IMG/VR virus record: IMGVR_UViG_3300021962_000156
Coordinates: 1 to 50,751 of that record
Source: a virus
Strand: one strand, 5' to 3'
Length of the DNA stretch: 50,751 bases
In this document: in pieces, positions 1-44,577 of the stretch
Layout: every line of letters starts with the position of its first letter
How positions within the stretch are numbered: position 1 is the stretch's first letter
Program-made: the position numbers and the translations under genes
The notes under the pieces: model-generated
Database searches by the model: none
What the model saw: only the letters and a program-made list of their open reading frames with translations
Told to the model about the DNA's origin: nothing

Positions 1-12
1 TTGTCCAGCCAT
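1..12 (-). CDS. 5' end of a second RCC1-type gene, cut by the window edge
   Basis: The stop codon of the RCC1-type gene overlaps an ATG (TAATG), and the four codons left before the edge read M-A-G-Q. The complete RCC1-type gene next door also starts M-A-G-Q, with the same DNA for these codons (atggctggacaa). This suggests a tandem paralogue translationally coupled to the first. Only four codons are visible, so the identity rests on this match and on the operon layout. Confidence 0.5.
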
Positions 13-4500: not shown

Positions 4501-7500
4501 CAGAAGCCATCATCTGTGCAACGACACCACCGGAAGCTATGCCTATTACTGCACTTCCCGAAGGATAATAAGTCACTGAAGACAAACCACTAGCTGCTGT
4601 GAGTGCAGCAGCAGTCCAAGATCCACCTAAAGCCGTTGAACTTCCGGCTATTGTTATTGTGCTATTTGCAAGTTTGTCGTTTGCAACAGTACCACTTGCA
4701 ATGTTAATGTTATTGACAGCACCAATAGCAAGGTCACCACTTCCAACACTTCCGCTTATTATTAAACCTTCTACTAATCCACTTGCGAGATGCGCTGCTC
4801 CAATTTGACCAGAACCAATGGCTCCTGAAAGTACAGAAGAATTTGCTAGCATCTGGGAAACTACACCACCAGAAGCAATTCCTATTGTCAAACTACCAGA
4901 TGGATAATAAGTACCGGCTAGCAAACCAGAAGATGTTGTAAGTGCAGCAGCAGCCCAACTTGCTCCAAGAGCAGTACTGCTACCGGCAATGGTAATCGTT
5001 GAATTGACAAGATTTGCATTAGCCACAGTATTTGCAGCTATGTGAACGCCACCAATTACACCAGAACTTATCTTGCCAGATGTGACTGCGCCGTCTGCAA
5101 TATCTGCATTAATTACTGCGCCAGAGGCAATATGTTCTGCCGTGATACTGCCAGAAGCAATAGCGAATTGTCCTACACTTCCAGAAGCAATGCTTCCAGA
5201 TACAACTGCTGCATTTCCTATATGTCCAGAATTAACTGCGCCACTACTAAGTGCAAATTTTCCAACACTTCCAGAGGCTATATTTCCAGATGTTACCTGT
5301 CCACTTCCAAGAGTAGCTGTGCTAATTACTCCAGAAGCAAGATGGAATAAGCCTATTTGTCCACTAGCAATACTTCCAGACAAAATAGATCCACTAGCCA
5401 TCAATTGAGCAACTATGCCACCTGAGGCTATGCCGATAGTTATACTGCCGGATGGGTAGTAGGTTCCAGCCAACAAACCACTTGATGTAGTGAGAGCTTG
5501 TGCCGCCCAGCTTGCGCCCAATGCTGTAGAACTACCAGCTATTGTGATTGTAGAGTTTATTAGATTCGCATTTGCAATAGTATTCGCAGCAATTTTATTT
5601 CCGGTAACCTGACCAGAAGCAATATTGTTTGTATTTACTGCGTTGTCACCTATCGTGCCACTTACTACTACTCCGCTTGTAAGGACTGCTGTGCCAAGAT
5701 TAGTACTGGCATAATTTCCACCAGTTGTAATGTCTATGTAGAAGCCTCTAGCAAGACCACCTTGCTCGAAAAATCTTAGTTTATTTTGATAAACATCGAT
5801 TGTAACGCCAGCACCAGATAAAGTTGTATTGGTTACTGGTTTTGCAAGTAAAATTTCACCGCCTTCGTCTCCTACCGAATTGGTAACACTTACTTGAGGA
5901 ACAGACAAAATGCTGCCGTCCCAAGTTAAAGACGAAGTTGCCGCTAAAAGATTATTATTATTAAATTGAATCTGACCCGATGAGCCAGCAGCTACCGCAT
6001 TAGCTAATACGCCGCTAGCCAAATGAGAAACTGAAATTTGACCAGAACCAATATCTCCACTCTGAACAGCACCATCAGCAATTAACTGACTTGTAATTCC
6101 TCCAGAAGCAATGCCTATGGTCAGACTGCCTGAAGGATAATAAGTACCTGCCAACAAGCCAGAAGAGGTAGTAAGGGCTTGTGCTGCCCATGAACCACCA
6201 AGGGCTGTAGAACTACCAGCTATTTGTATTGTAGAATTTGCTAATTTGTCATTTGCAATAGTACCGGAAATTATATTGATATTACTTACGGAAAATTGAC
6301 CTATTTTCCCGCTTGTGACGCTGCCAGACGCTAGGTGGTTTTGACCAATCTGACCGGAAGCAATACTTCCAGATACAACTATGCCGGATGACAACAGACC
6401 AAAAAACTCACCAGAAGCATTGATTCTTGCATAAGTATTGCCAGCACTATCTTGCCACTCTTGCAAGTTTGCTGTTTGGGCAGTATATCCTTTAACAATT
6501 AATCCCTTTAGAGAAGCAGATCCAATTTCTACTTGTAATTTTCCGCTTGGAGTATTGGTGTTAATGCCAACATTGCCATTATCGAATATTGAACTATTTC
6601 CAATTCCGTTTGTGCTGACAAATTTGGAAACATAATTTACAGTGCCACTTAAGTTGTTTGGACTAACTGCTGTTCCAGATGCCAAGTGATCAGCGCCGAT
6701 CTGTCCAGAAGCTATACTTCCAGAAACTACAGCTGCGTTCCCAATTTGTCCAGAGATCACAGTTCCTGAAGACAAATTGAACCAAGCGATTTGGCCGGAA
6801 GCTATGTTGCCGGATACAACAATATTTGCAGCGAGATATCCTGTAAAAACACCACTGTTGTTAACAGAGGCAACAGTTGTTCCAGATGCATTAATCCATT
6901 CTTGCACAGTCGCCGCACCAGACAAAGTTGTTTTGACAAACAATCTATTGGTATTCACTGCGCCAAAAGTAGTGGAAATTCCAACAAGACCACTACTGTT
7001 TACAAAGAAAATTGGATTGCCAGAGATATTGCCGACTTCCAAAATCAACCCTTGAGATGAATCGCTAACTGTAAAGAGTTCTCCATTCACACCCGTAACA
7101 GACAATGCGTTGGAACCGCTGGCTGTTGAAACGACACTTAAAGTCTGTCCATCAAATGTAAGATTCGCTTCAGCATTACCTAGATTTGTCCCTGAAGCAA
7201 GACTAGTTATAATCCTATTATCTGAAGGATTAGTTACGGCAAACAATACTCCAGAAGCTACATGATTAGCTCCGATTTGACCAGAAGCTATGCTGCCACT
7301 AACAACTGCATTGTTTCCAATATGACCTGAAAGAACAGCACCAGAAGCCAAATTTACGGAAGATATGGAACCGCTAGCCACCTTGCCAGAAACTACGGCA
7401 TTGTCAGCGATATCTACGGATATAATTGCACCTGAAGCAATTAAATTCGCTGTAATACTGCCAGAGGCAATATGAAATGTACTTATTTGCCCCGAAGCTA

Positions 7501-10500
7501 TGCTTCCACTAACAACTGCATTGTTTCCAATATGACCTGAAAGAACCGCACCGCTGCTCAATGCAAAGTTGTTAACAGTGCCAGATGCTATTGTGCCTGA
7601 AACTACCTGTCCACTGCCTAAGACTGCTGTGCTAATTACACCAGAAGCCAAGTGATAAAAACCTATTTGCCCTGAGGCTACACTTCCAGAAACTACTGCA
7701 CCATAGTCTATGCTACCACTTCTAATTGCTCCACTACTTATATGTGCCCAGCCAATTTGTCCGCTTGCGATGCTTCCAGAAACCACTGCTGCATTGCCTA
7801 TTTGACCGGAATTGACTGCACCACTTGATAAATTGAAAGAAGCTATAATCCCTGAAGCAACCTTGCCGCTTACAATAAGGAAGTCAGATAAATCTTCAGA
7901 AACTATGGTTCCTGAAGCTATGTGCTCGGTTGTTATTACACCCGAAGCTATTGCAAATCTACTTACAGCCCCGCTTGCTATGCTTCCTGAAACTACAGCA
8001 TCGTTTCCTATTTTACCAGAGGTTACAGCGCCAGAACTTATGTGAAATTGTCCAACACTACCAGAAGCTATGTTTCCAGATGTTACTTGTCCTGAACCTA
8101 GTGTTGCTGTGCTTATAGTTCCAGAAGCAAGATGTACAAAACCTATTTGTCCAGAACCTATGTTGCCCGAAACAACTGCATTTGCCTCTATGTGTCCGCT
8201 TCTTACTGTACCACTACTTAGGTTGAACCAAGCTACGATGCCACTTGCTAATTTGCCAGAAATTACAGCATTATCTGCAATTTTTTCAGAACCGATAGAG
8301 CCAGACGCAATTAAATTTGCAGCAATAGCGCCTGAGGCAATTGCAAATGTCCCTACTTGACCTGAAGCAAGAGAGCCAGAAACAACGGCGGCATTACCAA
8401 TATGACCAGAAAGGACCGCTCCGCTACTTAAGGCAAAGTTGTTAACACTTCCTGAAGCTATGACACCAGATGTTACTTGTCCACTACCCAATACTGCTGT
8501 GCTAATTACGCCAGATGCTAAGTGATTGATGCCAATCTGACCAGAGGCTATTTTGCCTGATGTAATAGCACCGCTGCCGACATTATTGTTGAGTACTGAA
8601 GCATCGGCTAGATGTGTAGAACCTATTGCTCCAGATACTATAGTTCCAGAAAAAACGGAACCATTAGTTATATGACCACTTCTAACAGCCCCGGAGGCAA
8701 GGTTAATCCATGCTACTATTCCAGATGTAAGTTTCCCGCTTACAATCGTGGCATCAGCTAATTTTTCACTGTTGATTGACCCAGATTGTATTTGATATCC
8801 AGCAATACTACCTGAAGCAATATGATACTGACTAACTTGACCACTGGCTATGCTGCCAGATACAACTGCGTTATTGCCGATGAATCCAGAGGTCACACTT
8901 CCAGATTTCAACATGGCTGAATCAAGAACGCCACTTGCCAAGTGATTTACAGAAATTTGTCCTGAACCAATATTTCCAGATAAAACAAAACTATTTTTCC
9001 AAACACCAGAATCGTAATAAAGTATTTGATTATTTGTGGCACTTGTAATATTGACATCAGATAAACTGTTTAAACTCAAGGATATTGTGCCACCGCCAGC
9101 ACCAGCTGTGTTCCTGAATGTACCACCTTGAATGAAAGTGGCATCAGCAGTGGTATTTAAAGCTGTTGCTCCTCCTCTGATTATGATGTATCCCAAAAAT
9201 ACGGCAGAACTAGCCGTCATGGTATCTTCGTCAAAATCCTCAACAACTATGTTCTGGGCAGCAGTACCACTGTCATCATATAAAACTCTTCCATAGTAAA
9301 TGTAAACATTGTTTGTATCTTTTGGAATATAAAAAACTCTTTGTATAGTCCATTTATCACTTGGCACGGTTCCCGGAGTGCCATCGCCATCATCATATTT
9401 TGTTGGATCAACAGACGAAACCGCCGTGTCAAATGTGAATGTGCCTGCAACAGAAGACCTATATGCATAAGTAATCGTGGCAGCCGATTTTGAAGACTCT
9501 GAAGTGACGCTTGTATTATTGACATCATTTTCATAATTACTACCAAGCGCAAAAGCAGAACCTGAATTTCTGTCTAAATTTAAATTCGCTCCATTAGCCG
9601 ATATGTCTAGGCCATCAAGTTTCAAAGGTCCAAAACTTAGAACAAATGTTTCTACTTGACCCAATCCGTCATAACTGGTTAGTGGTCTTGGACCAACATC
9701 CGTGATGTTGGTATGGTCTGCATGAACAACAAACCCCATGATAATATGGTTGCTAACTTCATCTGGAGTAAATTGCGTATGTTGTTGAACAAGAGTGCCA
9801 CCAGACGCTATAGCAACATATGTTACATGACTTCCACTGAAAAGAGGTGTTTGATTGTTAAAAGCACTCCAGCTAACATTAGTTACCTCTGGAATCCCAC
9901 TTGCATTCCAAGCTACAACAAGCTGCCCCTGACCAGCTGATATGTTGTATGTTAGATTACCCGAATTTAAGGTAATTAAGCCGCCACTAGTAAGACCAGT
10001 TTTTAGTTGCTGTTTGTAACGATCAGAACTGATTCCACCAAGTCCTAAAGCATTGTTTATAGTTGCGCCAGAACTGAAATGATTTGTTCCGATTGACCCA
10101 GAAGCTATGTTGCCACTTTGTACAGAACCAACACCTAGATTAAATGTTGTTACTGCACCCGATGCCAAATTGCCAGAAGCAACAGCATACGGGCTAAGAT
10201 TGCTAGAAACTATTGTGCCAGAAGCTATGTTTGCGGAATTAATTGATTCAGAACCAACCTGACCGCTTATTACTGCACCGCTGCTCAAGGCATATTGATG
10301 TACGCTGCCAGAAGAGATACTGCCAGAAACCACGGCTCTGTTGCCGATGTGTCCAGACAACACAGCCCCACTACTGAGGGTAAAATTGTTTACTGTGCCA
10401 GAGGCTATATTTCCAGATGCAACTTGTCCACTTCCCAAAATTGCTGTGCTAATAGTGCCAGATGCAAGATGCACAAAACCTATTTGTCCAGATGATATGT

Positions 10501-12709: not shown

Positions 12710-13726
12710 TTAAATTTTAGTTATTGTTACATAACCATGATTTGAATTACTACCGCTAGTACCACTTATAAAGGTGCCTGCGTAATAACTGCCACCGCCA
12801 CCTCCAAATTGACCATCACTAGCTGCGCCGTTACCACCTCCGCCTCCACCTGAGTAACCTCCTCCTCCTCCTGCCCAACAATAATTAGCATAACCGCTAT
12901 TATTGCTTCCATCGCCTGCACCGCCACCTCCACCAAAGCCTCCAGCGACTGTAAAATTGCTATTTACTGTAGTAAAACCTCCGAGCCAACCTCCCAATCT
13001 GCTCAATCCTTGCAAGCCATTAGAAGCAGCACCATCGGACGATATTCCAGCACCGGGACCGGCAAACAAGATTCCTCTTGTGCTTTTACCACCACCACTA
13101 CCACCAGTACCTCCAGCAGCCGTAGATCCATTTGCTATGCTTACTGTCGAGCCAGATGTTGTGTCATATTTACCGTGTGCTGTTGTCTGAGATGTCAGCA
13201 AATTTGTACTCGATGCAGCAGCGCCACCGCCTCCTCCTGCAACCACATAATAACTGATAGAAGAACTATTATAAACAAAACTGCCGCCTCCACCTGCGCC
13301 ACCGCAGTAATTACCTGTTGGACCTGCACCTCTATTGCCTCCCATTTGCCCAACAACAATTGCAACTATAGTGCTTTTTGTTAAAGACACTCTGGTAGTC
13401 AAAACAGCACCATATCCACCTATTCTGTTGGGAGAGACTTGTGTGTTGTTTCCTCCAGCAGCACCCGCAGCGGTGATCTCGTAAGTAGCATCTTCAGGCA
13501 CAGTCCATAATTGAATCCCTTGTGTTGTCATATTGAAAAAAGCAGTATTTTGCGTCCATGAAGCGGATGAGTAAGCTGATTGGCAAGCAGATAAAGTGGG
13601 ACCACTCCTTCCAGTTGCGCTAGCGTTTGTAAAAGTAAATGTAGAAAAGTCATACAAACCAGATGTTGGAATTCTTCCGAGAACAGTATTTGCTTTAATC
13701 ACGCAATTGTTTGTCAGAATACTCAT
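12710..13726 (-). CDS. Glycine-rich tail-tip/adhesin-like protein
   Basis: The start chosen is the ATG whose ATGA overlaps the stop of the upstream fibre gene; an in-frame codon 11 triplets earlier would lie inside that gene. Residues about 95-330 are dominated by poly-glycine loops (GGAGGGGSF, VVAGGGGGAAA, GGGGGYSGGGGGG) alternating with short strands, ending VTITKI. This resembles glycine-rich domains such as the T2-type Gp38 adhesin tip or bacterial Gly-rich domains, where poly-Gly helices pack together. The N-terminal 90 residues are non-repetitive with a WTVPEDATYEI strand. Function as a receptor-binding tip is inferred from composition and its place between two fibre genes. Confidence 0.75.
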   Translation of the reverse strand: MSILTNNCVIKANTVLGRIPTSGLYDFSTFTFTNASATGRSGPTLSACQSAYSSASWTQNTAFFNMTTQGIQLWTVPEDATYEITAAGAAGGNNTQVSPNRIGGYGAVLTTRVSLTKSTIVAIVVGQMGGNRGAGPTGNYCGGAGGGGSFVYNSSSISYYVVAGGGGGAAASSTNLLTSQTTAHGKYDTTSGSTVSIANGSTAAGGTGGSGGGKSTRGILFAGPGAGISSDGAASNGLQGLSRLGGWLGGFTTVNSNFTVAGGFGGGGGAGDGSNNSGYANYCWAGGGGGYSGGGGGGNGAASDGQFGGGGGSYYAGTFISGTSGSNSNHGYVTITKI

Positions 13727-16700
13727 GTGACAATTCTTGCTCCTACGCTTACATTCCAAGTTCCAGAAGTTATGTTAGCTCTGAGGGTAAGATTTCCACT
13801 CACAATTAGTGCTGAAAAAGCTAAGGCTATCGTTGAGCCACCCATATCAGCAGTCGAAGTTTCGCTGTAATTAACTGTGTCTAATCCAGAATCCCATACA
13901 GCAGTAACATTTCCCGCCCTAGAACCGCTACTCACAGTATTTCTTACAAAATATTCAAAAAATCCCGCTTGACCAGCAGTATCTGGAATGCTGAATGCAT
14001 CAAATGTCGTAGTCTGACCGCTTGTTAAACTGCTAAATGTTCTACTGAATCCAAACGAACTTACTTCAAATACAGTTGTGTTAGATGCATTCACAACTTG
14101 CAACAACGAACCACTTGTAATGTCATTTACAGCCAATAGAGTTCCAGAAACTCCTGTCACTGACAACAGGGTGCTACCTGCACTAGTGCCAGTCACGGCA
14201 AGCGTAGTTCCATCATATGTCAAATTAGTTTCTGCGTTGGCTTGGTTTGTGCCCGAAGCAAGGCTGGTAAGAATTCTATTATCAGAAGGATTAGTTACAG
14301 TGAAAAGCACTCCAGAAGCTACATGATTAGCCCCGATTTGACCGGAAGCAATGCTACCTGAAACTACGGCGGCATCACCGATATTTCCGCTCCTTACAGA
14401 TCCTGAAGCCAGATTGAACCAAGCAACAACTCCGGATGCAATTTTTCCAGAGATTACAGCACTATCGGCAATCTTTTGAGATGAAATTATACCAGAAGCC
14501 AAAGCAAAAGAACCAATTTGTCCAGATGCAATATTTCCAGAAAGTACAGATCCAGAAGAAAGATTAAACCAAGCTACAACACCGCTTGCAACTTTACCAG
14601 ATACCACTGCATTATCAGCGATATCAGCAGTAATTATTGCGCCAGAAGCTATCAAATCCGCTGTAATACTACCAGATGAGATATGAAATGTGCCAATTTG
14701 TCCAGAAGCTATGCTCCCACTCACAACGGCATTATTTCCAATATGACCTGAAAGTACAGCACCAGAAGACAAAGCGAAATTATTCACTGTTCCAGAAGCA
14801 ATTACGCCAGAAGTTACTTGCCCAGAACCCAAGGAAGCTGTTGACAAAAGTCCAGATGCCAAGTGATATAAACCTATTTGCCCAGAAGCTATATTGCCAG
14901 AGTTGACAACTCCAGAACCAAGAGTAAACCAAGAGATTGAACCACTAGCAATTTTTCCAGACACTACAGCATCGTCAGCAATATCGGCTGTTATAACTGC
15001 ACCAGAAGCAATATGTTCTGCTGTTATGCTGCCACTTGCAATCGCAAATTTACCAACACTCCCGCTAGCAATGCTGCCTGAAACAACAGCTGCATTACCG
15101 ATGTGACCAGAAAGAACCGCTCCACTACTAAGTGCAAAATTGTTTACTACGCCAGAAGCAATCACACCAGAGGTGACTTGTCCAGATCCAAGAGTTGCTG
15201 CGGATATCACACCAGAAGCTAGGTGAATTGAACCTATTTGACCAGAAGCAATAGATCCACTTACTACAGAGTTGTTTCCAATATTACCTGAAAGTATGGC
15301 ACCAGAAGAGATATTAAACCAAGATACAATTCCACTAGCTAATTTTCCACTAGTAACTGCGTTGTTTGCAATATCTTCAGAGCCAATAGCTCCAGAAGCA
15401 ATCAACTCACTTGTTATACTTCCAGAAGCCAGATGATATGTTCCTATTTGACCAGAAGCTATGTTTCCACTTACAACTGCGTTATTGCCGATTTGGCCGC
15501 TGTTTACTGCACCACTAGAAAGAGCGAATTGACTTATTTGACCAGATGCTACATTTCCACTTACAACTGCGTTATTGCCGATTTGACCACTATTGACAGC
15601 ACCACTTGACAGATGCATCTGACCTATTTGTCCAGACGCTATGTTTCCGCTTACAACTGCGTTGTTGCCAATTTGACCACTATTGACAGCACCACTTGAC
15701 AGATGCATCTGACCTATTTGACCAGATGCTATACTGCCACTGACTACTGCTGAATTTCCTATCAAACCACTTACAATTTCTCCAGATGTAATTGTAAATG
15801 AATCAATTACGCCACTAGCTAAGTGATAGAAACCAACCTGACCTGAAGCGATATTGCCACTTGTTACTGCGTTATCGCCCAAGGAGCCAGAAGCTATTGC
15901 TCCACTTGCAATATGGAATTGACCGATGCTTCCACTAGCTATACTGCCAGAAACAACTGCTGCATCACCAATTAATCCACTGGTGATTTCTCCAGATGTA
16001 ATTGTGAAAAGTTCATTCATGCCAGAAGCAAGATGAACAGGTCCGATTGAACCAGAAGCGATACTACCACTTACAACTGCATTGTTGCCGATTTGACCGC
16101 TGTTTACTGCACCGCTAGAAAGAGCAAATTGACTTATTTGTCCAGATGCTATATTTCCGCTTAAAACAGAATTGTTGCCCAGCAGCCCACTTACGATTTC
16201 CCCCGACTGTATTGTAAATAGAAGCTCAAGACCGCTAGCCAGATGTGTTAATCCAATCTGACCAGATGCGATGTTGCCAGAACTCACAGAGTTGTTGCCA
16301 AGATTTCCTGAAAGTACAGCACCGGAGGCGAGATTGAACCAAGCGACAACTCCGCTTGCAATTTTTCCACTTATAATTGCATCGTCAGCGATTTCTTCAC
16401 TTGTAATAGATCCCGAAGCAATATGCTGGGATTGTATAACGCCGGAAGCAATATGAAATGAGCCAATCTGACCAGACGCAATGCTACCGCTTACCACGGC
16501 ACCATTTCCAATCATGCCAGAAACAACTTCTCCACTTGTTAGTGTAAATTGTTCTGTCAGACCGCTTGCCAAATGATAAATACTAATTTGACCAGATGCT
16601 ATATTTCCAGAAGCAACTGAGTTGTATCCCAGATTTCCAGAATTAATCGCAAATGTTCCAATGTTGCCAGAGTTGACAACTCCAGAACCAAGCGCAAACC

Positions 16701-18657
16701 AAGATACTGACCCACTCGCAATTTTTCCAGACACTACAGCATCGTCGGCAATATCAGTTGATATTACCGCACCGGAAGCAATATGTTCTGCTGTTATGCT
16801 GCCACTTGCAATTGCAAATTGACCAACACTTCCACTAGCAATGCTTCCAGAAACAACGGCTGCATTTCCTATATTTCCAGAAAGAACCGAACCAGATGCA
16901 ATATTAAACCAAGCTATTACACCACTTGAAATCTTCCCGCTGACGATGGCGTTGTCAGCAATATCGACAGACATTACTGCGCCAGAAGCAATCAAGTCAG
17001 CTGTAATGCTGCCAGAGGCGATATGGAAAGTGCCAATAACACCTGAAGCGATGCTGCCTGAAACTACGGCAGCATTTCCGATATGACCGGAAAGGACTGC
17101 GCCGCTGCTTAGTGCAAAATTGTTTACTGTGCCTGAAGCAATTACACCCGAAGTGACTTGTCCACTACCCAATACAGCTGTGGATATTACACCGGATGCT
17201 AGGTGAATAGACCCTATTTGCCCAGATCCAATGCTGCCTGAAATTATTGCTGAATCAGCTATATTGTTGCTTCTAACCGCTCCTGAAGCCAAGTTGAACC
17301 AGTCAACAACTCCAGATGCAATTTTTCCACTAATAATTAAATCATCAAATAATTTATCGCTGGTTATTGTTCCAGAGGCAATGTGGTGACCAAATATAAC
17401 GCCAGAAGCTATTTCGTATTGGCCAATTTGTCCAGATGCTATGTTTCCAGAAACAATAGCTCCATAACCAATATGGCCAGATTCGATAGCACCGCTACTT
17501 ATGTGTTCATGACCTATTTGTCCGCTTGCGATGTTGCCGGACATGACTGCCCCATCAGACAGATGCCCAGATCGAACGGCCCCAGAACTTAAAATATACC
17601 AAGCAACAACACCAGATGCTATTTTACCGCTGACAATCAATTCTTCAGCTAGGTCTTGAGAAGTTATAGTTCCAGAAGCTATCTGTTGTGTGGTTATCGC
17701 ACCAGAAGCTATGTGATATGTCCATATCTGACCCGAAGCTATGCTGCCAGAAACAACAGCATTATTTCCGATGTGTCCTGAGAGTACAGCACCACTACTT
17801 AGTGCAAAATTGTTAACAGTTCCAGATGCTATAGTACCTGAAACTACCTGTCCAGATCCAAGGGTCGCAGTCGAAATTACACCCGAAGCTAGGTGGTAAT
17901 ATCCAATTTGTCCAGAAGCGATGTTGCCTGAAACGACAAGACCAGAAGCAAGATATCCTGTAAATATACCACTGGCATTTATTGATGCCATAGTTGTGCC
18001 AGAGGCATTTTTCCATTCTTGTACTGTTACATTACCGGATAAAGTCGGTGTTACAAATATTCTGTTTGCATTTACAGCACCATAAGTTGTCGCTAAGCTT
18101 ATTAATCCGCTGCTATTTACAGATAATATCGGAGATCCAGAAATACTTCCAACTTCAAGAATAATACCATCAAGAGCATCAGTCACAGTGAAAAGTTCAC
18201 CGTTCACTCCTGTTGCTGTAATTACATTTGATCCACTGGTGCTTGATGTTATACCTAAAGTTTGGCCATCAAATGTAAGACTGGATTCAGCGTTTGCTTT
18301 GTTTGTCCCAGAAGCCAAACTTGTAAGAATTCTATTGTTTGAAGTATTTTCAACATTAAACAAGACACCTGAAGCAATATGATATTGGCCAATTTGTCCA
18401 GAAGCTATGCTGCCCGACACCACGGAATTATTTCCAAGGTAGCCAGATGTTATTTCTCCCGAAGAAAGTTTTAATTCATCAAATAAACCGCTTGCAAGAT
18501 GGGAAGCTCCTATTTGTCCTGAACCTATTGTTCCTGACAAAACAGATGAGTCTCCAAGAAAACCACTTGTTACAAATCCTGATTGTTGATGCAAATAAAG
18601 TGCATCTGCTCTTGGTTTGCTTAGACCACCATTATGACCTGTTTGGCTATTAAACAT
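13723..18657 (-). CDS. 1644-residue repetitive phage fibre protein
   Basis: This fibre uses the same SG-x-I repeat as the 3426-residue protein and shares larger modules with it, such as the segment around SDNRILTSLASGTN and the VQEWKNASGTTMASINASG type. The N-terminus (FNSQTGHNGGLSKPRADAL) differs from the giant fibre. The last 130 residues are a non-repeat domain containing FFEYFVRNTVSSGSRAGNV, AVWDSGLDTVNYSET and a W-N-V-S-V-G-A-R end, a terminal domain seen in phage fibres. The ATG at 18657 is preferred over an in-frame TTG two codons earlier because it lies just after the upstream stop. Tail or capsid fibre role is inferred. Confidence 0.85.
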   Translation of the reverse strand: MFNSQTGHNGGLSKPRADALYLHQQSGFVTSGFLGDSSVLSGTIGSGQIGASHLASGLFDELKLSSGEITSGYLGNNSVVSGSIASGQIGQYHIASGVLFNVENTSNNRILTSLASGTNKANAESSLTFDGQTLGITSSTSGSNVITATGVNGELFTVTDALDGIILEVGSISGSPILSVNSSGLISLATTYGAVNANRIFVTPTLSGNVTVQEWKNASGTTMASINASGIFTGYLASGLVVSGNIASGQIGYYHLASGVISTATLGSGQVVSGTIASGTVNNFALSSGAVLSGHIGNNAVVSGSIASGQIWTYHIASGAITTQQIASGTITSQDLAEELIVSGKIASGVVAWYILSSGAVRSGHLSDGAVMSGNIASGQIGHEHISSGAIESGHIGYGAIVSGNIASGQIGQYEIASGVIFGHHIASGTITSDKLFDDLIISGKIASGVVDWFNLASGAVRSNNIADSAIISGSIGSGQIGSIHLASGVISTAVLGSGQVTSGVIASGTVNNFALSSGAVLSGHIGNAAVVSGSIASGVIGTFHIASGSITADLIASGAVMSVDIADNAIVSGKISSGVIAWFNIASGSVLSGNIGNAAVVSGSIASGSVGQFAIASGSITAEHIASGAVISTDIADDAVVSGKIASGSVSWFALGSGVVNSGNIGTFAINSGNLGYNSVASGNIASGQISIYHLASGLTEQFTLTSGEVVSGMIGNGAVVSGSIASGQIGSFHIASGVIQSQHIASGSITSEEIADDAIISGKIASGVVAWFNLASGAVLSGNLGNNSVSSGNIASGQIGLTHLASGLELLFTIQSGEIVSGLLGNNSVLSGNIASGQISQFALSSGAVNSGQIGNNAVVSGSIASGSIGPVHLASGMNELFTITSGEITSGLIGDAAVVSGSIASGSIGQFHIASGAIASGSLGDNAVTSGNIASGQVGFYHLASGVIDSFTITSGEIVSGLIGNSAVVSGSIASGQIGQMHLSSGAVNSGQIGNNAVVSGNIASGQIGQMHLSSGAVNSGQIGNNAVVSGNVASGQISQFALSSGAVNSGQIGNNAVVSGNIASGQIGTYHLASGSITSELIASGAIGSEDIANNAVTSGKLASGIVSWFNISSGAILSGNIGNNSVVSGSIASGQIGSIHLASGVISAATLGSGQVTSGVIASGVVNNFALSSGAVLSGHIGNAAVVSGSIASGSVGKFAIASGSITAEHIASGAVITADIADDAVVSGKIASGSISWFTLGSGVVNSGNIASGQIGLYHLASGLLSTASLGSGQVTSGVIASGTVNNFALSSGAVLSGHIGNNAVVSGSIASGQIGTFHISSGSITADLIASGAIITADIADNAVVSGKVASGVVAWFNLSSGSVLSGNIASGQIGSFALASGIISSQKIADSAVISGKIASGVVAWFNLASGSVRSGNIGDAAVVSGSIASGQIGANHVASGVLFTVTNPSDNRILTSLASGTNQANAETNLTYDGTTLAVTGTSAGSTLLSVTGVSGTLLAVNDITSGSLLQVVNASNTTVFEVSSFGFSRTFSSLTSGQTTTFDAFSIPDTAGQAGFFEYFVRNTVSSGSRAGNVTAVWDSGLDTVNYSETSTADMGGSTIALAFSALIVSGNLTLRANITSGTWNVSVGARIVT
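15460..15720 (-). repeat. 90-base near-identical tandem units in the fibre gene
   Basis: The 20 bases at 15611-15630 recur exactly at 15701-15720, giving a 90-base (30-residue) period. The translated unit is of the form SGNIASGQIGQMHLSSG plus AVNSGQIGNNAVV, repeated at least three times with only HL/AL type changes. The high DNA identity compared with other repeats points to recent tandem duplication. Confidence 0.75.
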
Positions 18658-18659
18658 AT

Positions 18660-19112
18660 TCAAACACCAACATATGATATTGTTTGTGAGGCTGCATCAG
18701 AAATAACAAAAATTCTATTTGTATTGTCTACTGGCAATGACACGCTTTCTCCCGCTCCTAATTCAAATCCCGTCAATGTGGTCACACCTGTCAGACCGAC
18801 ATAGACTGTGCCTGAATTTCCATTATTTGCTTTCACAGTTACTGACATAAAAACGGGGTTATTAGGAAGCTGAACTTGGGATGTGCCTACAGTGGTTTGT
18901 CCTGCTACAAAATTGCTTCGTCCAATTTGTTGATCAGATGCAACAACAACTGGTCTGCTATTTGCGCTAGTTTGCAAGCCCTGCGCTGCGTCTCTGACTA
19001 CTAAGGCTATAGCAGACGAGGATGGCAATGATGTTGTCAGAGCTACAGCCTGTGAATCAGCATCTGTAACTTGTATTGGCATTGCAGTTTGTATTCTTGT
19101 CAAATCTGACAT
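18660..19112 (-). CDS. Small virion-type protein heading the fibre operon
   Basis: This 150-residue protein has no catalytic motif. It starts MSDLTRIQTAMPIQVTDADS and its second half is a predicted beta sandwich (FMSVTVKANNGNSGTVYVG, ELGAGESVSLPVDN, NRIFVISDAASQTISYVGV), the pattern of small phage virion proteins that report a value with an SVT-ideal linker. The protein at 33948 opens in a similar way (GLPISITDANYNG). A good ribosome site (AAGGTGGACTG) precedes the ATG, and its stop is followed at once by the 1644-residue fibre gene. It is probably the first gene of the leftward adhesin operon. Structural role is inferred. Confidence 0.65.
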   Translation of the reverse strand: MSDLTRIQTAMPIQVTDADSQAVALTTSLPSSSAIALVVRDAAQGLQTSANSRPVVVASDQQIGRSNFVAGQTTVGTSQVQLPNNPVFMSVTVKANNGNSGTVYVGLTGVTTLTGFELGAGESVSLPVDNTNRIFVISDAASQTISYVGV

Positions 19113-27171: not shown

Positions 27172-27888
27172 ATGAATAATTCAAAAGTTTTTAGTTATTA
27201 TTTTAATCTTGGGTATCAAGTAATTCCTATTCATTATCAAACCAAAGTTCCAATATTTAAATCTTGGAATAAAAATTATGATTCTGCAAAGCTTGAGGAA
27301 TTTGTAGCAAAATCGACAGTGCCTTTGAATTTTGGAATATTGTTGGGAGAAATTGTTGATATTGAGGGAGATTGTGAAAAGAGCAATCGAGAAATTGATG
27401 AATTGCTTGTAGAAATTCCACATCCTGTATTTCAGAGTAGAAAATCAAAACATCATCTTTTTAGGAGCCGTGTAAAAAACCTTACACGTATTGTCAAAAA
27501 TGGCATAGAATTTAGAGGTTATAAGCATCAATCTATTATACCGCCTAGTTGTCATGAAAATGGAACAAAGTATGAATGGATTACAGATGTTTTTAAATTT
27601 GAGGAAATACCTTTTTTGCCAACTAATATACACAATTATCTAAACACTTTAATAAATCAAGACAAGCCACAAGTGAATAAAAAAGAACTTAAGCCACATC
27701 ATCTTAGTGTGTCGTGTGCATCATGTTTAGACAAATTTTATTTGCATCAAGTAAGATTCGAAAAAGAATTACGAGCTTTTAAAAATACTGGAAGTCGGTG
27801 GTTATGCAGGAAATGCCGCCCTACAGATCTGCGAGATACAATACGAAATTTTAATGCCAAGTGTGGAAGAAAGGTGAACACGCAGTGA
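27172..27888 (+). CDS. Stand-alone Prim-Pol (AEP) domain with zinc ribbon
   Basis: Residues 5-150 match the bifunctional primase-polymerase N-terminal domain: YYFNLGYQVIPI with K25-x-P-x-F-K-S-W, NFGILLGE, the metal-binding D63-x-E65, the S-K-H motif at 92-94, E113 in GIEFRG and IIPPSCHENGTKYEW. These cover the three archaeo-eukaryotic primase motifs. Residues 182-215 hold C-x2-C and C-x2-C, a zinc ribbon. The usual fused helicase (D5/SF3 type) is missing; the protein is only 238 residues. It may prime or fill in DNA with a separately encoded helicase. No Shine-Dalgarno is evident. Confidence 0.78.
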   Translation: MNNSKVFSYYFNLGYQVIPIHYQTKVPIFKSWNKNYDSAKLEEFVAKSTVPLNFGILLGEIVDIEGDCEKSNREIDELLVEIPHPVFQSRKSKHHLFRSRVKNLTRIVKNGIEFRGYKHQSIIPPSCHENGTKYEWITDVFKFEEIPFLPTNIHNYLNTLINQDKPQVNKKELKPHHLSVSCASCLDKFYLHQVRFEKELRAFKNTGSRWLCRKCRPTDLRDTIRNFNAKCGRKVNTQ

Positions 27889-28768
27889 AAAATTCTTTTT
27901 CAAATTTAACAAGCAAAGAATCAGGCATAAAATTTGATATAAATTTATAGTATTTTTTTGCTATATTTATATCACATTCATTTATTGCTTTTCTTACCTC
28001 TTGATAGTCATATCCAAAACAATCATACGAATTTTTATTATAAGAGCCTGTTTTGCTCTCTTTGGTAGACCAAAACTTTTTGTGTAGTCCTTCTTCCATA
28101 AAATTATTTACAAATTCTACCATATCAAATACAAGTGAGCATGTCTCTGGAGATCTTATCCAAAAGGACGATAGAGTCCTGTATTCTATTCCATACTGTT
28201 TTGACCTAAAACATCCTGCTTGACCATAAATTTTACGTCTTTTGTATTCATCTACAGAATTTGCAAGCATGACAAATGGAAGAGCAATGAAGAGATCAAG
28301 CATATACACATAAATAGGTTTTAGAAAAGGATCACAGACGACTTCATCAGAAAAACCCCCTATATGAATGTGTCCACCGCTACTTCTTTGACCATATTTC
28401 TTGAATGCATTAAGTGGTACTTTGTTGTAAGAAAACGTATATGCGTTAAGATCTGCTTCGCATCCAACTTGGTTTACGTTCTTTCCGGCCATAGACTTTG
28501 GATCGATCTCTCCGTATGCCTGTAAAGATATTTTATATGGATCTATTTTGCCACAGAAAAAAGCCATGGCCTCTGCAATTGCACTTGAAAATTCACGTGC
28601 GTTTTTTGCAGGTTTGAAATTTAATTCAGCTAAAATGTTATCGTAAAAAAAAGAGAAATTTTTTTCTTTTAAAGGCTTCTTTTTGCAATAAGGCAAAATG
28701 CTTATAGCATTAACTATTTCATACTTATCATTTACTAGGAAAAACTCTGGGTCTGCGCCTAACAGCAT
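27851..28768 (-). CDS. COOH-NH2 amidoligase (phiEco32-type)
   Basis: The signature pieces are M-L-L-G-A-D-P-E-F-F-L at the start, RSSGGHIHIGG in the middle and YGIEYRTLSSFWIR later, which match the phage COOH-NH2 ligase type 2 family, relatives of glutamine synthetase and ATP-grasp-independent amidoligases. They couple a carboxylate to an amine using ATP. The ATG at 28768 is chosen because GGAAAGG lies eight bases ahead and GADPEF is the family's usual start; a TTG five codons earlier is less likely. About 305 residues is a normal length. In phages the substrate is unknown, peptide or cell-wall modification being suggested. Confidence 0.8.
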   Translation of the reverse strand: MLLGADPEFFLVNDKYEIVNAISILPYCKKKPLKEKNFSFFYDNILAELNFKPAKNAREFSSAIAEAMAFFCGKIDPYKISLQAYGEIDPKSMAGKNVNQVGCEADLNAYTFSYNKVPLNAFKKYGQRSSGGHIHIGGFSDEVVCDPFLKPIYVYMLDLFIALPFVMLANSVDEYKRRKIYGQAGCFRSKQYGIEYRTLSSFWIRSPETCSLVFDMVEFVNNFMEEGLHKKFWSTKESKTGSYNKNSYDCFGYDYQEVRKAINECDINIAKKYYKFISNFMPDSLLVKFEKEFFTACSPFFHTWH

Positions 28769-28844
28769 ACAACGCCTTTCCAAAAATGTTATATTATTAT
28801 TCTATTAGATTTAATTGCAAAAACAAATTAATAGATAAAATATT

Positions 28845-38516: not shown

Positions 38517-39323
38517 ATGAACGTTTATTTGTTTATGAAAAAAATATTCATCGCAATTCTACTTTTTTGTGCAATTATTTTTTGTAATGCACAATCTGAA
38601 TCCGAATATCAAACTTTTGTCGAAAAATGTTTAAAACCAACTGTTTTGATTGGCAGCAATGATGATAGCATCACCGGCACAGGTGTTATTGTTAAATCAG
38701 AAAAACTAAAATATGTTGATGCTTATTTTAACGTTATATTTTCCTGTGATCATATTTTGAAATCAAATAAACAAAATATAAAAATATCTGAGTTTGATAA
38801 AAATGGCATTTTTGTTAAGTATACAAATGCCAAAGCTGTGGTATTCTATAAGGATAGAGATGACGATTTAAGTATATTGTTTTTTACATCAGATAATATT
38901 ATGCCAACAGCAGACCTGTCTTTTAACTATAATCCAAAATTAAAAGATTTTGTATTTTCTATTGGACATGGTATGGGAGATCATTCCCGCTATACTGATG
39001 GTGTAATTACTGGTGCACTAAAAACAAAAGAAGACTTTACCGATTATAAAACATCAATACCTATTATTTTCGGAGATTCCGGAGGACCTCTATTTTACAA
39101 AAACAAATTAATTGGTATCACAAATAGCATCAGATCGCTGAAGGTAACAGAAAATGTTAAAGTTCCTGTCTATAACATATCGACATTTAAATCATTAAAT
39201 CTTTTTAATAAAATTTTAAACACGACTAGTCTTAGCGATAAAGATTTTAAGAATTTAAATATACCTGAAATTCTTGGTGTTGATTTGTGGTTAAAATATC
39301 AAAAAAACATACTTGATAATTAA
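38517..39323 (+). CDS. Secreted trypsin-like serine protease
   Basis: A signal peptide is evident: KK then IFIAILLFCAIIFCNA, with a cut likely before QSESE (residues about 8-25; the ATG six codons later, MKKIF, could also be the start). The mature part is a trypsin-2/S1-type protease: catalytic His in FSCDHIL, Asp in DRDDDLSIL and Ser in IFGDSGGPLF, with the GTGV and IGHG loops. About 240 mature residues is normal for this family. Export through the host Sec system suggests an envelope or extracellular target. No transmembrane anchor beyond the signal. Confidence 0.82.
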   Translation: MNVYLFMKKIFIAILLFCAIIFCNAQSESEYQTFVEKCLKPTVLIGSNDDSITGTGVIVKSEKLKYVDAYFNVIFSCDHILKSNKQNIKISEFDKNGIFVKYTNAKAVVFYKDRDDDLSILFFTSDNIMPTADLSFNYNPKLKDFVFSIGHGMGDHSRYTDGVITGALKTKEDFTDYKTSIPIIFGDSGGPLFYKNKLIGITNSIRSLKVTENVKVPVYNISTFKSLNLFNKILNTTSLSDKDFKNLNIPEILGVDLWLKYQKNILDN

Positions 39324-41220: not shown

Positions 41221-41811
41221 ATGTTAGATGAATGGCAATATGATGGAAAGAAATTAAGAAAAATAGACTTAACGAATCGTGAAAAACAATTCGTTCTTGG
41301 CAGTCTTTTGGGCAACGGTAGCATAATTTTTCCTAAAAAATCACTGAGTCCACACCTACAACTTCGTGAAAGCATTAGCAAAGGAGGCACATGGCTTAGA
41401 TGCAAAGCAGAAGAACTAAAAAGATTCAGCCGTCAAAAAGCATTTATCCGTGATCAGGATAGCTTCCGATGGAATTCCATTACAAATCCTTGTTGGGAGT
41501 ACTTTTTCGATATCTGCTACAAAAATCGTAAAAAAGATGTAACCATGAACTGGTTAGATCTACTTCAAGACATAGGCCTTGCTGTTTGGTTTTTAGACAA
41601 AGGACATATATTTCAAAAAAGCTGCCACATACGTGTTAGTAGAATGAACGAATCTTCCATGAAAAATTTTATAGAATATTTTAGAATTATAGAAATACCA
41701 TGTACATTAAAAAAATATGGAGGCAGCACAGTACTACATTTTGATCAAGAAGAAATGGTTCGTTTAATACGACTTATCGGTCCATGCTTTCCAAATTATC
41801 TCAAGTCTTAA
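41221..41811 (+). CDS. Free-standing LAGLIDADG homing endonuclease
   Basis: Two motifs mark the family: FVLGSLLGNGS at residues 24-34 and GLAVWFLDKGH at 119-129, about 95 residues apart, in a 196-residue protein (single-chain LAGLIDADG_2 type). The first motif has Asn32 where a catalytic Asp is expected, while D126 is present in the second, so it may be a nickase or degenerate. It is not inside a visible intron or intein. TATATATT and TATT stand before the ATG, with no Shine-Dalgarno. It overlaps the converging peptidase gene by four bases. Confidence 0.8.
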   Translation: MLDEWQYDGKKLRKIDLTNREKQFVLGSLLGNGSIIFPKKSLSPHLQLRESISKGGTWLRCKAEELKRFSRQKAFIRDQDSFRWNSITNPCWEYFFDICYKNRKKDVTMNWLDLLQDIGLAVWFLDKGHIFQKSCHIRVSRMNESSMKNFIEYFRIIEIPCTLKKYGGSTVLHFDQEEMVRLIRLIGPCFPNYLKS

Positions 41812-42389
41812 GGAACCTTACGTGCATAATTTAAATAAAACGGCTTAGAATTTTTCCATGCTATAATACCCAGTTGCTCGTGATGCTGACCTTTGTAGTC
41901 CAAATCATGCCAACGTGTTATAAGCTCTGCTTTTGGTATATAACCACGAGTACAGTTTAACCAAGGATCTTCAAAAATTATGTTTTTTTTGTCATATCCA
42001 ATTGCAACTAAATAATGACCATTACCGTTATTTTTGTAGTTTTTAGGAGACCCATAAGCTTGTAATACTAAAATTACAGGTCTTCTTTTTTGCAATTCTT
42101 GACATAATGATCTTATTCCCATATTGTAAACCATCTTGCAACTTATTCCCACTTCCTTGAAATATGTCACCATTTTGTTTGGTGGTGTACCATATGTTTC
42201 ATCTGTCTCTAAGTAAGCAAAATAATCATAATGAGATTCTAATCCTAATCCGTAATACGCACATATTGAATGTACAGCCGCTGCTCCACAACTAAAATGT
42301 GTTTTTTGTTGAACTTCAGGAAGCCAAACCTTTATTGCATCTGGATTGATCTTCTTGTTGTTTGGCCTTTTATTGTTATTGTAAGCCAT
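41808..42389 (-). CDS. C39-like cysteine peptidase
   Basis: The papain-like catalytic set is visible: Gln28 in EVQQKTHF, Cys34 in FSCGAAAVHSICAYYG, His125 in NGHYLVAIGYD and Asp141 in FEDPW. This is the bacteriocin-processing (C39) or C39-like pattern. It lacks a transporter domain and a signal peptide, so is a soluble single-domain protein of 193 residues with a basic N-terminus. It could act as a peptide-cleaving maturation or anti-bacterial enzyme; the target is unknown. TGTAAATA plus four bases precedes the ATG and there is no Shine-Dalgarno. Confidence 0.8.
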   Translation of the reverse strand: MAYNNNKRPNNKKINPDAIKVWLPEVQQKTHFSCGAAAVHSICAYYGLGLESHYDYFAYLETDETYGTPPNKMVTYFKEVGISCKMVYNMGIRSLCQELQKRRPVILVLQAYGSPKNYKNNGNGHYLVAIGYDKKNIIFEDPWLNCTRGYIPKAELITRWHDLDYKGQHHEQLGIIAWKNSKPFYLNYARKVP

Positions 42390-42794: not shown

Positions 42795-42983
42795 ATGAAA
42801 ACTTTCCAAGAATGGCTCTTTGAAATGGCAGGAACTGATGCAATAGTATCTTGCAAAGATCTTGACAATCCCAATTTTCAGATTCAAGGAAGCCTATCAA
42901 ATCTAAATTGCAAAAATAAGAAAACGCAAAAAATACCATATACAACAGATCCTGTAAAAACTAAGGCTGCGGCTTCTGCATAA
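42795..42983 (+). CDS. Small protein with capsid-targeting-like start
   Basis: Starts MKTFQEWLFEMAG, ten residues to E10; from memory T4 IPIII starts MKTYQEFIAE. Cutting after LFE would leave a 52-residue polar peptide with two cysteines (VSCKDL and NLNCKN) and an Ala-rich end. No Shine-Dalgarno. Its 3' end overlaps the converging membrane protein gene by 23 bases. Confidence 0.65.
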   Translation: MKTFQEWLFEMAGTDAIVSCKDLDNPNFQIQGSLSNLNCKNKKTQKIPYTTDPVKTKAAASA

Positions 42984-43494
42984 TTTTATTTGGTGGCAAA
43001 AGATATGCTCTAAAATCTGCATCCCGAGTCAAACTTCCTTCCCCTTCCCCAGTCACTTCTTGGCCGTCCATGGGCTTGCGTGACAAAACTACATATCCAC
43101 CCTTTTTTATTTGCTCCATAGCATTCTCAAGACCCTGATGTGCTTCTTTAGAATATGGCATTTTAAACATTCTCGCTGTATCATCGGGTTTGTAAAAAAC
43201 AAAATCATACCAAGAATGTGTAAACAAATCATACTCTCCATGAGCCTCACCAATCACATACAAAGATTTTGGCTCATTAGAAATGAAAGACATAAGTCGC
43301 ATTTGCATGGGAAGATGCTCATCTGCTGGCCATCCCATATATGAACGAACCCCAAACCATAAAATTATTACAAAAAATGTCGTGATGTTTATTAACCACA
43401 TCTTCGCAGTTAACCAACCTTTTACACCAATTACAATCCACAATAAAACACTTGATAAGAGTAAAAACAAAATAGGAAACAACAATGTGTTCAT
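42961..43494 (-). CDS. Membrane protein, third gene of the ExbB/ExbD-like operon
   Basis: Two transmembrane helices lie in the first 50 residues (TLLFPILFLLLSSVLLWIV and WLINITTFFVIILWFGV), then a soluble part of about 125 residues with SLYVIGEAHGEYDLFTHSW and GYVVLSRKPMDGQEVTGEG. The soluble part does not match a family I know. GGTGAGC sits before the ATG, and its start overlaps the ExbD-like stop by four bases, so it is probably co-translated with and part of the same complex. Confidence 0.65.
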   Translation of the reverse strand: MNTLLFPILFLLLSSVLLWIVIGVKGWLTAKMWLINITTFFVIILWFGVRSYMGWPADEHLPMQMRLMSFISNEPKSLYVIGEAHGEYDLFTHSWYDFVFYKPDDTARMFKMPYSKEAHQGLENAMEQIKKGGYVVLSRKPMDGQEVTGEGEGSLTRDADFRAYLLPPNKIMQKPQP

Positions 43495-44102
43495 TGCTCA
43501 CCCTTTTTTTTAATTAACTTCTTTTGAGGACCGTCTGTCACATAATTCACATCCCCATTTTTATCCACACCAAATCTAAAAACCGTTAATTCTTGTCCTA
43601 TAGTAGCTAATTTTATTTCTTTGCTAGCTATTAATTTGTAAGGATTCATTTTTTCAATTCTTATGCTAACGGGCGTTGGCTCTGCACCAGTTCTTTTTGA
43701 ATATAAATGAGAATTTACAATATACTCTCCCGGTACTATGCCTCTAATGCTCACTACCTCACGATTCTCCTTGTAATCAATTTTCTTGCCATTAGGCAAA
43801 GTAATAGTGTCGTTTTTATTACCCAGATCATCTCTGTCTAAATGCATTAACCCATCTTCTCGTCTATTAAAAGATGTTATATTATTCAGCGGATCAACAA
43901 CATAAATGTCTATGTCATCATCCCACTGATACGGCCATGTAGATGTTATTAAAAATTCAACGTTCTTCACGGTCGGCTTGGATTCAGTTTTCTCACTTAT
44001 TAACAATAAAGCTAACATAAAAAATCCAACAAAAGCCAATAATGTATTAAATAACAAATCTAAAAATGCAGTTGAAGACCCGTAGTTTTTACTTCTTTTC
44101 AT
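43491..44102 (-). CDS. ExbD/TolR-like subunit with a beta-sandwich domain
   Basis: The N-terminus has one transmembrane helix with the hallmark aspartate: F-L-D-L-L-F-N-T-L-L (D15), equivalent to the proton-path Asp in ExbD, TolR and MotB (FIDVMLVLL in ExbD). Instead of the usual small ExbD periplasmic domain or MotB OmpA domain, residues 45-190 form a YfaP/DUF2135-like beta sandwich (WPYQWDDDIDIYVVDP, HLDRDDLGNKND, RGIVPGEYIVNSHLY, PVSIRIEKMNPY). Its ATG lies in the 3' end of the ExbB-like gene with GAAGGAAG ahead. A proton-driven complex with unknown output is inferred. Confidence 0.72.
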   Translation of the reverse strand: MKRSKNYGSSTAFLDLLFNTLLAFVGFFMLALLLISEKTESKPTVKNVEFLITSTWPYQWDDDIDIYVVDPLNNITSFNRREDGLMHLDRDDLGNKNDTITLPNGKKIDYKENREVVSIRGIVPGEYIVNSHLYSKRTGAEPTPVSIRIEKMNPYKLIASKEIKLATIGQELTVFRFGVDKNGDVNYVTDGPQKKLIKKKGEQ

Positions 44103-44577
44103 TATCTTCCTTCAACTTTTGTATTTCATTTTCCATATCAAAAGCTTGCAATTTAAGTATATTGCCAAAAATTAAACCAACAAGTGTTGTGTACAAAGCT
44201 GTAGACATGCCATAACTCATACCAACAATCAAAGATTGAATCCCACTTGAGTCCCCCGGACTTAATGAAGAAAAACCAGCCAACATTTGGATAAAACCAA
44301 CCACAGTACCAATCATTCCTAAACTTAAACAGATTTCTGAAAAAAACCAACTTAGCTCAATTTTTCTTTCCAAATCTTTGGTGTCTTTTATGCTCGATGC
44401 CAGCTTACCATTATAACACGAAATTGTAACAAATATTGCCATAATTACAAAACACAAATAACTTGAATCTTTTTTATAAATCTCATGGAATACATTAAGC
44501 TTATAACAAATAAATGATGCTATGATTAGTATTGAATTTAGCAACCACCATCTCAGAAATGCACTGTTTTTGTTCAT
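44089..44577 (-). CDS. ExbB/TolQ/MotA-like proton channel subunit
   Basis: Helices at 11-25, 39-55, 82-102 and 112-142 are membrane segments. The last two carry the MotA/TolQ/ExbB pattern: S-L-G-M-I-G-T91-V-V-G-F, then SYGMSTALYTTLVGLIFGNI with T130/T131 at the place of the ExbB lining threonines. At 162 residues it lacks the long cytoplasmic loop of MotA and is shorter than TolQ. GAGGTACTT precedes the ATG. It forms a three-gene operon with an ExbD-like partner, so a PMF-using membrane machine is proposed. Confidence 0.75.
   Translation of the reverse strand: MNKNSAFLRWWLLNSILIIASFICYKLNVFHEIYKKDSSYLCFVIMAIFVTISCYNGKLASSIKDTKDLERKIELSWFFSEICLSLGMIGTVVGFIQMLAGFSSLSPGDSSGIQSLIVGMSYGMSTALYTTLVGLIFGNILKLQAFDMENEIQKLKEDNEKK

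Follow-up and report, generated by a model that had tools for sequence, protein, structure and literature searches.

The window, which denotes the complete 50,751-b stretch of DNA analysed here, is an IMG/VR viral record with large tail-fibre genes. It contains three overlapping genes on the minus strand, termed A, B and C (Table 1), whose coordinates in the first-pass annotation were borne out by our analysis. Genes A and B overlap by 14 nt and B and C by 4 nt, and purine-rich ribosome-binding stretches are located 5' of both A and B when the minus strand is read. When compared with the corresponding genes of locus L001, all three show dN values (0.24-0.41) far below dS (1.4 or more), indicating that A, B and C are each subject to purifying selection. 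In the remainder of the window, the two very large open reading frames matching tail-fibre families are apparently repetitive and related to each other. A LAGLIDADG-like gene lies near ABC, and L001 also has one.

Table 1. Features of the ABC locus and of other annotated regions of the window.
Feature	Position	Strand	Basis or remark
Genes A-B-C	42961-44577	-	three overlapping genes, order A-B-C
Gene A, MotA/TolQ/ExbB-family channel protein, 162 aa	44089..44577	-	PF01618
Channel-lining helices of A, conserved GxxGTxxG (G87, G90, T91, G94) and T131/G134	44149..44328	-	residue counts
Gene B, ExbD-like subunit, 203 aa, one helix and periplasmic beta-sandwich	43491..44102	-	AlphaFold2 model, homologues
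B transmembrane helix with channel aspartate D15 (codon 44058-44060)	43998..44069	-	alignments
B periplasmic domain, predicted TerD-like fold	43533..43964	-	structural match; invariant D63, D65, D91, D92, E115 and R120
Gene C, two-helix protein with conserved periplasmic domain, 177 aa	42961..43494	-	AlphaFold2 model
Two transmembrane helices of C	43339..43482	-	
C periplasmic domain	42964..43317	-	weak OB-like match
C39-like peptidase, possibly endolysin	41808..42389	-	PF13529 5.6e-11; phrog_10051 endolysin 7.5e-7
LAGLIDADG homing endonuclease-like gene	41221-41811		PF03161, E 2e-21
Secreted trypsin-like protease	38517..39323	+	phrog_9683 protease 1.9e-6
COOH.NH2 ligase-like protein	27851-28783		phrog_3815, E 9e-50
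Two very large ORFs, 3426 and 1646 aa	1571-11851 and 13723-18663		same tail-fibre PHROGs matched
RCC1-like (regulator of chromosome condensation) repeat protein	12-1568		PHROG match

The product of gene A matches the MotA_ExbB family PF01618 with an E-value of 9.4e-9 and a score of 35.5 bits, exceeding the curated cut-off of 22.9, and bacterial A proteins reach 31.6-34 bits against the same profile. A profile built from the A family detects the solved structures of MotA (E 7.8e-5) and TolQ (E 2.2e-4). Hydropathy values averaged over the phage rows reveal four hydrophobic segments, near residues 12-30, 41-59, 82-100 and 123-141, with a very short cytoplasmic (middle) loop in the phage proteins; the bacterial A proteins are longer. 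Residues G87, G90 and T131 are present in all 101 phage and all 48 bacterial rows, and T91 is found in 97/101 and 44/48 of them, respectively (141/149 in all). The near-invariance of these channel residues in phages and bacteria argues that the ion path is under selection. The initial assignment of A as a MotA/TolQ/ExbB-like channel protein holds.

For gene B, the AlphaFold2 single-chain model (pLDDT 85.7) comprises one helix, spanning residues 10-35, and a subsequent beta-rich domain. The helix carries the aspartate D15, which is invariant in an alignment of 63 sequences (63/63), in the phage rows of the large alignment (101/101) and in a smaller mixed alignment of phage and bacterial proteins. 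In the large alignment, 13 of the 48 bacterial B rows show another letter in this column (12 Val, 1 Ala); we read these rows as shifted by one column, because the smaller mixed alignment, which holds such proteins, has the aspartate throughout. The description of B as an ExbD-like subunit with a conserved D15 is therefore confirmed.

The periplasmic part of B has no counterpart in the known machines of this kind. As the first-pass annotation had stated, it is neither an ExbD nor an OmpA domain, since B gives no ExbD/TolR or OmpA match. More broadly, neither B nor C has a convincing match in Pfam, NCBIfam, PHROGs or PADLOC. By structural alignment, the B model is closest to TerD (3ibz; VIA-align Z 10.9 over 138 residues, rmsd 4.2), followed by other chains of TerD or TerD homologues (Z 8.8-9.3), whereas ordinary sandwich folds score Z 6 and below. 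Two further high-ranking matches, 2qng and 9a6r, do not carry a TerD title, and Foldseek alone returned no significant match for the model. Likewise, none of 13 B proteins matched the TerD profile PF02342 at E<=1, and TerD genes, sought for a profile comparison, were not found in the phylum searched. The likeness to YfaP/DUF2135 that had been proposed earlier is real but weak: the B family aligns with E. coli YfaP over 76 columns with an hhalign probability of 63 (E 6.8e-5), and the two share the motif WxxxxxDxDLxVxxPxG, but the closest fold is that of TerD. Moreover, the Pfam profile DUF2135 (PF09906) does not match the B protein of the window and reaches at best E 0.066 in any protein tested (13.8 bits vs a cut-off of 22). 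On the basis of the model, we therefore describe the domain as predicted to be TerD-like, with a weaker similarity to YfaP/DUF2135. Ten of its residues are invariant or nearly so (W56, D63, D65, L88, D91, D92, G94, E115, R120 and G125), and the acidic members of this set would suit a metal site.

Gene C had been noted as a two-helix membrane protein. The two helices are indeed predicted (residues 5-23 and 28-52 of an AlphaFold2 single-chain model with pLDDT 82), but the protein also possesses a small conserved domain and, in one clade, a lysozyme. In 89% of C proteins, the loop between the helices is more positive than the stretch past the second helix, which places the C-terminal domain in the periplasm. 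The best structural matches of this domain are OB-like, with Z values of about 5.5, which is below significance. In one phage clade, represented by 11 contigs (including L102; two of them open-ended), the reading frame of C runs without a stop into a GH24 lysozyme, whose sequence matches lysozymes in the PDB with E-values down to 4.7e-40. C is about 50% identical between the ends of this clade. The in-frame fusion locates the end of C where peptidoglycan is; at the level of sequence, it supports a periplasmic position of C and ties the protein physically to peptidoglycan work, albeit as a single evolutionary event. The junctions between C and the GH24 domain (L076, L081, L083, L093, L094, L258-L265) contain a Shine-Dalgarno-like stretch and an ATG, and this possible internal start could also yield free lysozyme, so that dual products may arise.

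Considerably more than a hundred other phages also carry the trio. A tblastn search with B identified 27 named phage records, all of them from Rhizobium or Sinorhizobium phages; with three B queries of greater divergence, the only gain was a weak match within a large protein of a Caulobacter phage. The latter is a 687-aa protein of Caulobacter phage BL57 (L181, 2699-4762), with an internal domain weakly resembling the periplasmic domain of B. In the loci that we read, the order A-B-C is alike in otherwise dissimilar phages. Its carriers include the Pootjesviridae RHph_Y68, RHph_N34, RL2RES and P10VF as well as RHph_I1_18, RHph_N3_19, RHph_N3_13, the temperate phage 16-3, NV1.1.1, RHph_X2_25 and TM3_3_14B. 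In the last of these phage groups, small or homing-endonuclease genes separate the members of the trio, which is still complete; similarly, L052, L053 and L073 retain the trio with an insert of about 0.9-1.0 kb separating B from C. In phage 16-3, A, B and C correspond to p038, p040 and p042. Within IMG/VR, single-protein patterns for B retrieved no relative, whereas an alignment query uncovered 256 stretches encoding relatives of B and 408 encoding relatives of A, and contigs with the trio reach 527 kb. Among the newly fetched members of the best 80 A loci, B adjoins A in every case and C is present in all but two. After clustering at 85% identity, and with the inclusion of loci from MAG contigs that fall in the phage clade, A, B and C are all present in 100 of 103 non-redundant phage-side loci. 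Relatives thus carry the operon, a point on which the first-pass annotation had made its proposal depend. As judged from its recurrence as a unit and the purifying selection on its genes, the trio is far beyond chance, and we consider it very likely that it represents a real, functional stator-type system.

The composition of the trio bears on the possibility that phages carry these genes as flagellar stator genes (motA/motB) to change host motility. A and MotA are members of one family, and viral motA/motB genes from glacier-ice and ocean viruses have been read as flagellar stator or motility genes with a wide ocean distribution (PMC8290583). These reported genes resemble the ABC family in that a viral PF01618-family gene adjoins a B subunit; however, the reported MotB has a peptidoglycan-binding motif, which the B proteins of the ABC family lack. 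The absence of an OmpA-like peptidoglycan-binding domain from B already contradicts a flagellar function. Furthermore, the A protein of the window is far shorter than MotA, without its large cytoplasmic loop, and the constant third gene C is foreign to MotAB, making this explanation extremely improbable. A gut phage (L009, MT835480) encodes a full-length MotA-like protein of 270 aa (6599-7408), which is apparently a separate viral stator case outside the ABC family. Our search of the literature on phage ExbB/ExbD or DUF2135 retrieved only the motA/motB report and one claim of ExbB as an auxiliary gene.

ABC operons are also found in bacteria. Searching a plasmid collection, we detected B on Azospirillum megaplasmids, where a complete A-B-C operon lies among ordinary bacterial genes. 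The Azospirillum megaplasmids have two B places each, and contig 7 of genome G410 contains several B matches; judging from these sequences, Azospirillum and genome G410 likely harbor paralogous ABC operons. In a sample of Alphaproteobacteria, 63 of 385 genomes had B matches, and in 55 genomes (about one in seven of the sample) the match reached E 1e-19 or better. Four of these 55 genomes are small and have phage-type copies, three of which were placed in the phage clade. Strong matches were found in 16 of 398 genomes of a Pseudomonadota-wide sample and in one of 297 genomes from the phylum of a Desulfobacterales MAG, namely in that MAG itself. All three genes are present in 60 of the 62 bacterial loci examined. 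The settings are chromosomal, varied and of a housekeeping nature, with no fourth gene shared among twenty 20-kb contexts and no obvious partner gene of the host chromosomal copies in the contexts examined. The existence of complete operons in alphaproteobacterial chromosomes argues for a host-type system common to phages and hosts rather than a phage invention. The notion of a new periplasmic domain in a phage, as put forward initially, is therefore correct in that the domain occurs in the phage and is kept in others, but it is not restricted to phages.

In a quick A+B tree (152 rows, with several long branches meeting), the window falls into a phage clade of 96 rows (support 96). Temperate phages similar to 16-3 group with Azospirillum-type bacteria (support 100), the lytic Rhizobium phages stand apart, and 35 other bacterial operons cluster together (support 98). 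The starred branches require the phage label to change at least three times, with phages appearing in at least three groups. Phages and hosts may thus have exchanged ABC at least twice. This distribution raises the possibility that ABC performs its host envelope or stress task in the infected cell, keeping the envelope sound or energized and playing no part in lysis. Such an auxiliary function is consistent with the complete chromosomal operons in varied housekeeping contexts, the infection of Rhizobium or Sinorhizobium by the named ABC phages and the variable gene context in phages. On the other hand, most phage copies form a deep clade of their own and are not recently copied host genes, and the clade with the lysozyme fusion is difficult to reconcile with it, so that we regard this explanation as doubtful.

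The genes surrounding the phage copies provide additional clues. Clustering of the neighbors yielded no fixed fourth gene beyond A, B and C. In the phage clade of the window, the C39-like peptidase gene is situated about 2 kb from ABC (G001, G002, G032, G033; L001, 8483-9070). Secreted trypsin-like proteases are encoded near ABC in 16 of 103 loci (raw count). In the 16-3 group the protease gene adjoins A or lies close to it, and in X2_25 and TM3_3_14B it is immediately upstream of A; these proteases could be functional partners of ABC. Other neighbors resemble ClpS, ClpP, HSP20, sugar-nucleotide and replication genes (named by eye). As for lysis genes, a GH24 gene follows shortly after C in L062, and an Rz-like spanin gene adjoins A in the L034/L049 clade. 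In L034, a small membrane protein encoded downstream of C (8999-9319; phrog_10198, unknown function) is holin-like in appearance. A, B and C themselves have no convincing match to a holin or spanin family among the PHROGs, their matches to holins being at chance level only (0.57 for A, 0.16 for one C). Across 50 records, PF00959 was detected in six (in two of them inside large structural proteins), an Rz-like spanin in eight and PF13539 in none. In five other records, the spanin is about 19-250 kb away from ABC. A test of lysis-gene distances gave p 0.02 with non-independent clades and p 0.11 once one record of a doubled clade was dropped. With few records and distances that are not convincing overall, we rejected a general linkage of lysis genes to ABC.

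The best functional clue comes from the clade with the in-frame fusion of C to a lysozyme. Together with the GH24 gene after C in L062 and the spanin gene next to A in the L034/L049 clade, this fusion links ABC to the envelope and lysis, whereas the remote spanins and the weak result of the distance test argue against a general role in lysis. With some reserve, we suggest as the likeliest of the uses considered, though less probable than not, an energized remodeling or weakening of the envelope during infection, in particular to aid or time lysis. In its more specific form, this idea would make ABC a proton-powered lysis device, i.e., a late motor that strains or opens the cell wall or outer membrane or controls a lysozyme tethered on C, which we consider somewhat unlikely. 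If correct, however, lysis would include a motor-driven step separate from holin, endolysin and spanin, mediated by the kin of a hitherto unknown alphaproteobacterial envelope machine.

Many phage copies are located amid replication, sigma-factor or chaperone genes, which speaks against a use in lysis. Placement in regions with early or middle genes, along with the presence of ABC in temperate phages of the 16-3 group and its membrane location, would fit a role in superinfection exclusion or counter-defence, in which ABC alters the envelope or competes for force transducers, thereby keeping out other phages or weakening envelope defences of the host such as Zorya or Tol/Ton-dependent systems. 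Yet a three-component channel with all of its ion-path residues kept is more than a mere block would need, there is no homology to known exclusion proteins, and the similarity to ZorA is limited to the common channel. An activity of this kind is therefore unlikely.

Collectively, we propose that ABC is probably a phage version of a hitherto undescribed machine of the inner membrane that has three subunits, is driven by ions, is directed at the envelope and is also present in Alphaproteobacteria. By analogy with MotAB, TolQR and ExbBD, A would form a pentameric channel and B a dimeric axle, yielding a 5:2 assembly. The flow of protons (or sodium ions) past Asp15 of B and the threonines of A would then move B, and the TerD-like, possibly metal-binding domain of B may, together with the periplasmic domain of C, pass work to the cell wall or outer membrane. 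Because the cassette is present in cultured Rhizobium and Sinorhizobium phages (16-3, RHph_Y68, RL2RES and P10VF), the role of a phage proton motor can be tested by gene deletion.

Among known systems, the Zorya defence system deserves particular attention, as ZorA and A have the channel in common and the weak matches of A in the defence library are to ZorA. However, these matches score only 13-23 bits, as opposed to curated cut-offs of 100-700 (22.9 bits vs 500 for the A protein of the window and 23.2 vs 100 for one bacterial A). Moreover, A, with its 162 aa, lacks the long cytoplasmic tail of ZorA, and neither B nor C matched ZorB, ZorC, ZorD or ZorE in the defence library. Membership in Zorya thus fails both at the ZorA cut-off and at B. 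The first-pass annotation had also considered that the phage proteins might poison host ExbBD/TolQR or Zorya. In such a scenario, A or B would co-assemble with host stators as a dominant-negative decoy. We found nothing to support this suggestion beyond the shared channel family. Conversely, the full trio is conserved with its own B and C and occurs in hosts as well, and a decoy would need neither C nor an intact aspartate, making such poisoning very improbable.

TerD proteins are a family of calcium-binding proteins involved in tellurite resistance. B resembles them in the predicted fold of its periplasmic domain and in its conserved acidic DxD and DD residues, but TerD proteins are not known to serve as membrane-anchored stator subunits. 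YfaP, too, differs from B in that it is itself no stator subunit. Likeness to phage lysis proteins is confined to the linkage of C with GH24, either fused or adjacent, in some clades and to the spanin gene adjoining A in one.

The closest parallels are the ion-driven 5:2 motors, which include MotAB/PomAB, TolQR, ExbBD, AglRQS and GldLM. As in these systems, A belongs to PF01618 and has the GT and TT/GL motifs of the channel, B combines one helix bearing the channel aspartate with a periplasmic domain, and the genes are adjacent and overlapping. Nevertheless, ABC is not a member of the ExbBD/TolQR group, because B lacks an ExbD/TolR match in Pfam or NCBIfam and has a predicted TerD-like fold, nor is it a MotAB flagellar stator, since a TerD-like sandwich takes the place of an OmpA domain. 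No TonB/TolA-like gene was detected among the recurrent neighbors of the trios examined. The varied appended domains described in the accessible part of a survey of MotAB relatives include none of B's kind (PMC12505986). Pfam, NCBIfam, PHROGs and PADLOC name nothing of ABC beyond the channel domain, and viral genes of the channel family have been classified as auxiliary genes of the flagellar motA/motB type, a label that does not fit at least this branch. The A protein of the window is unusually short (162 aa), a predicted TerD-like domain stands in B where an OmpA or ExbD/TolR domain would be expected, and a third protein, C, is nearly always present. ABC would add to the ion-driven 5:2 motors a widely distributed branch, found in bacteria and phages alike, whose periplasmic module differs and which has C as an additional subunit.
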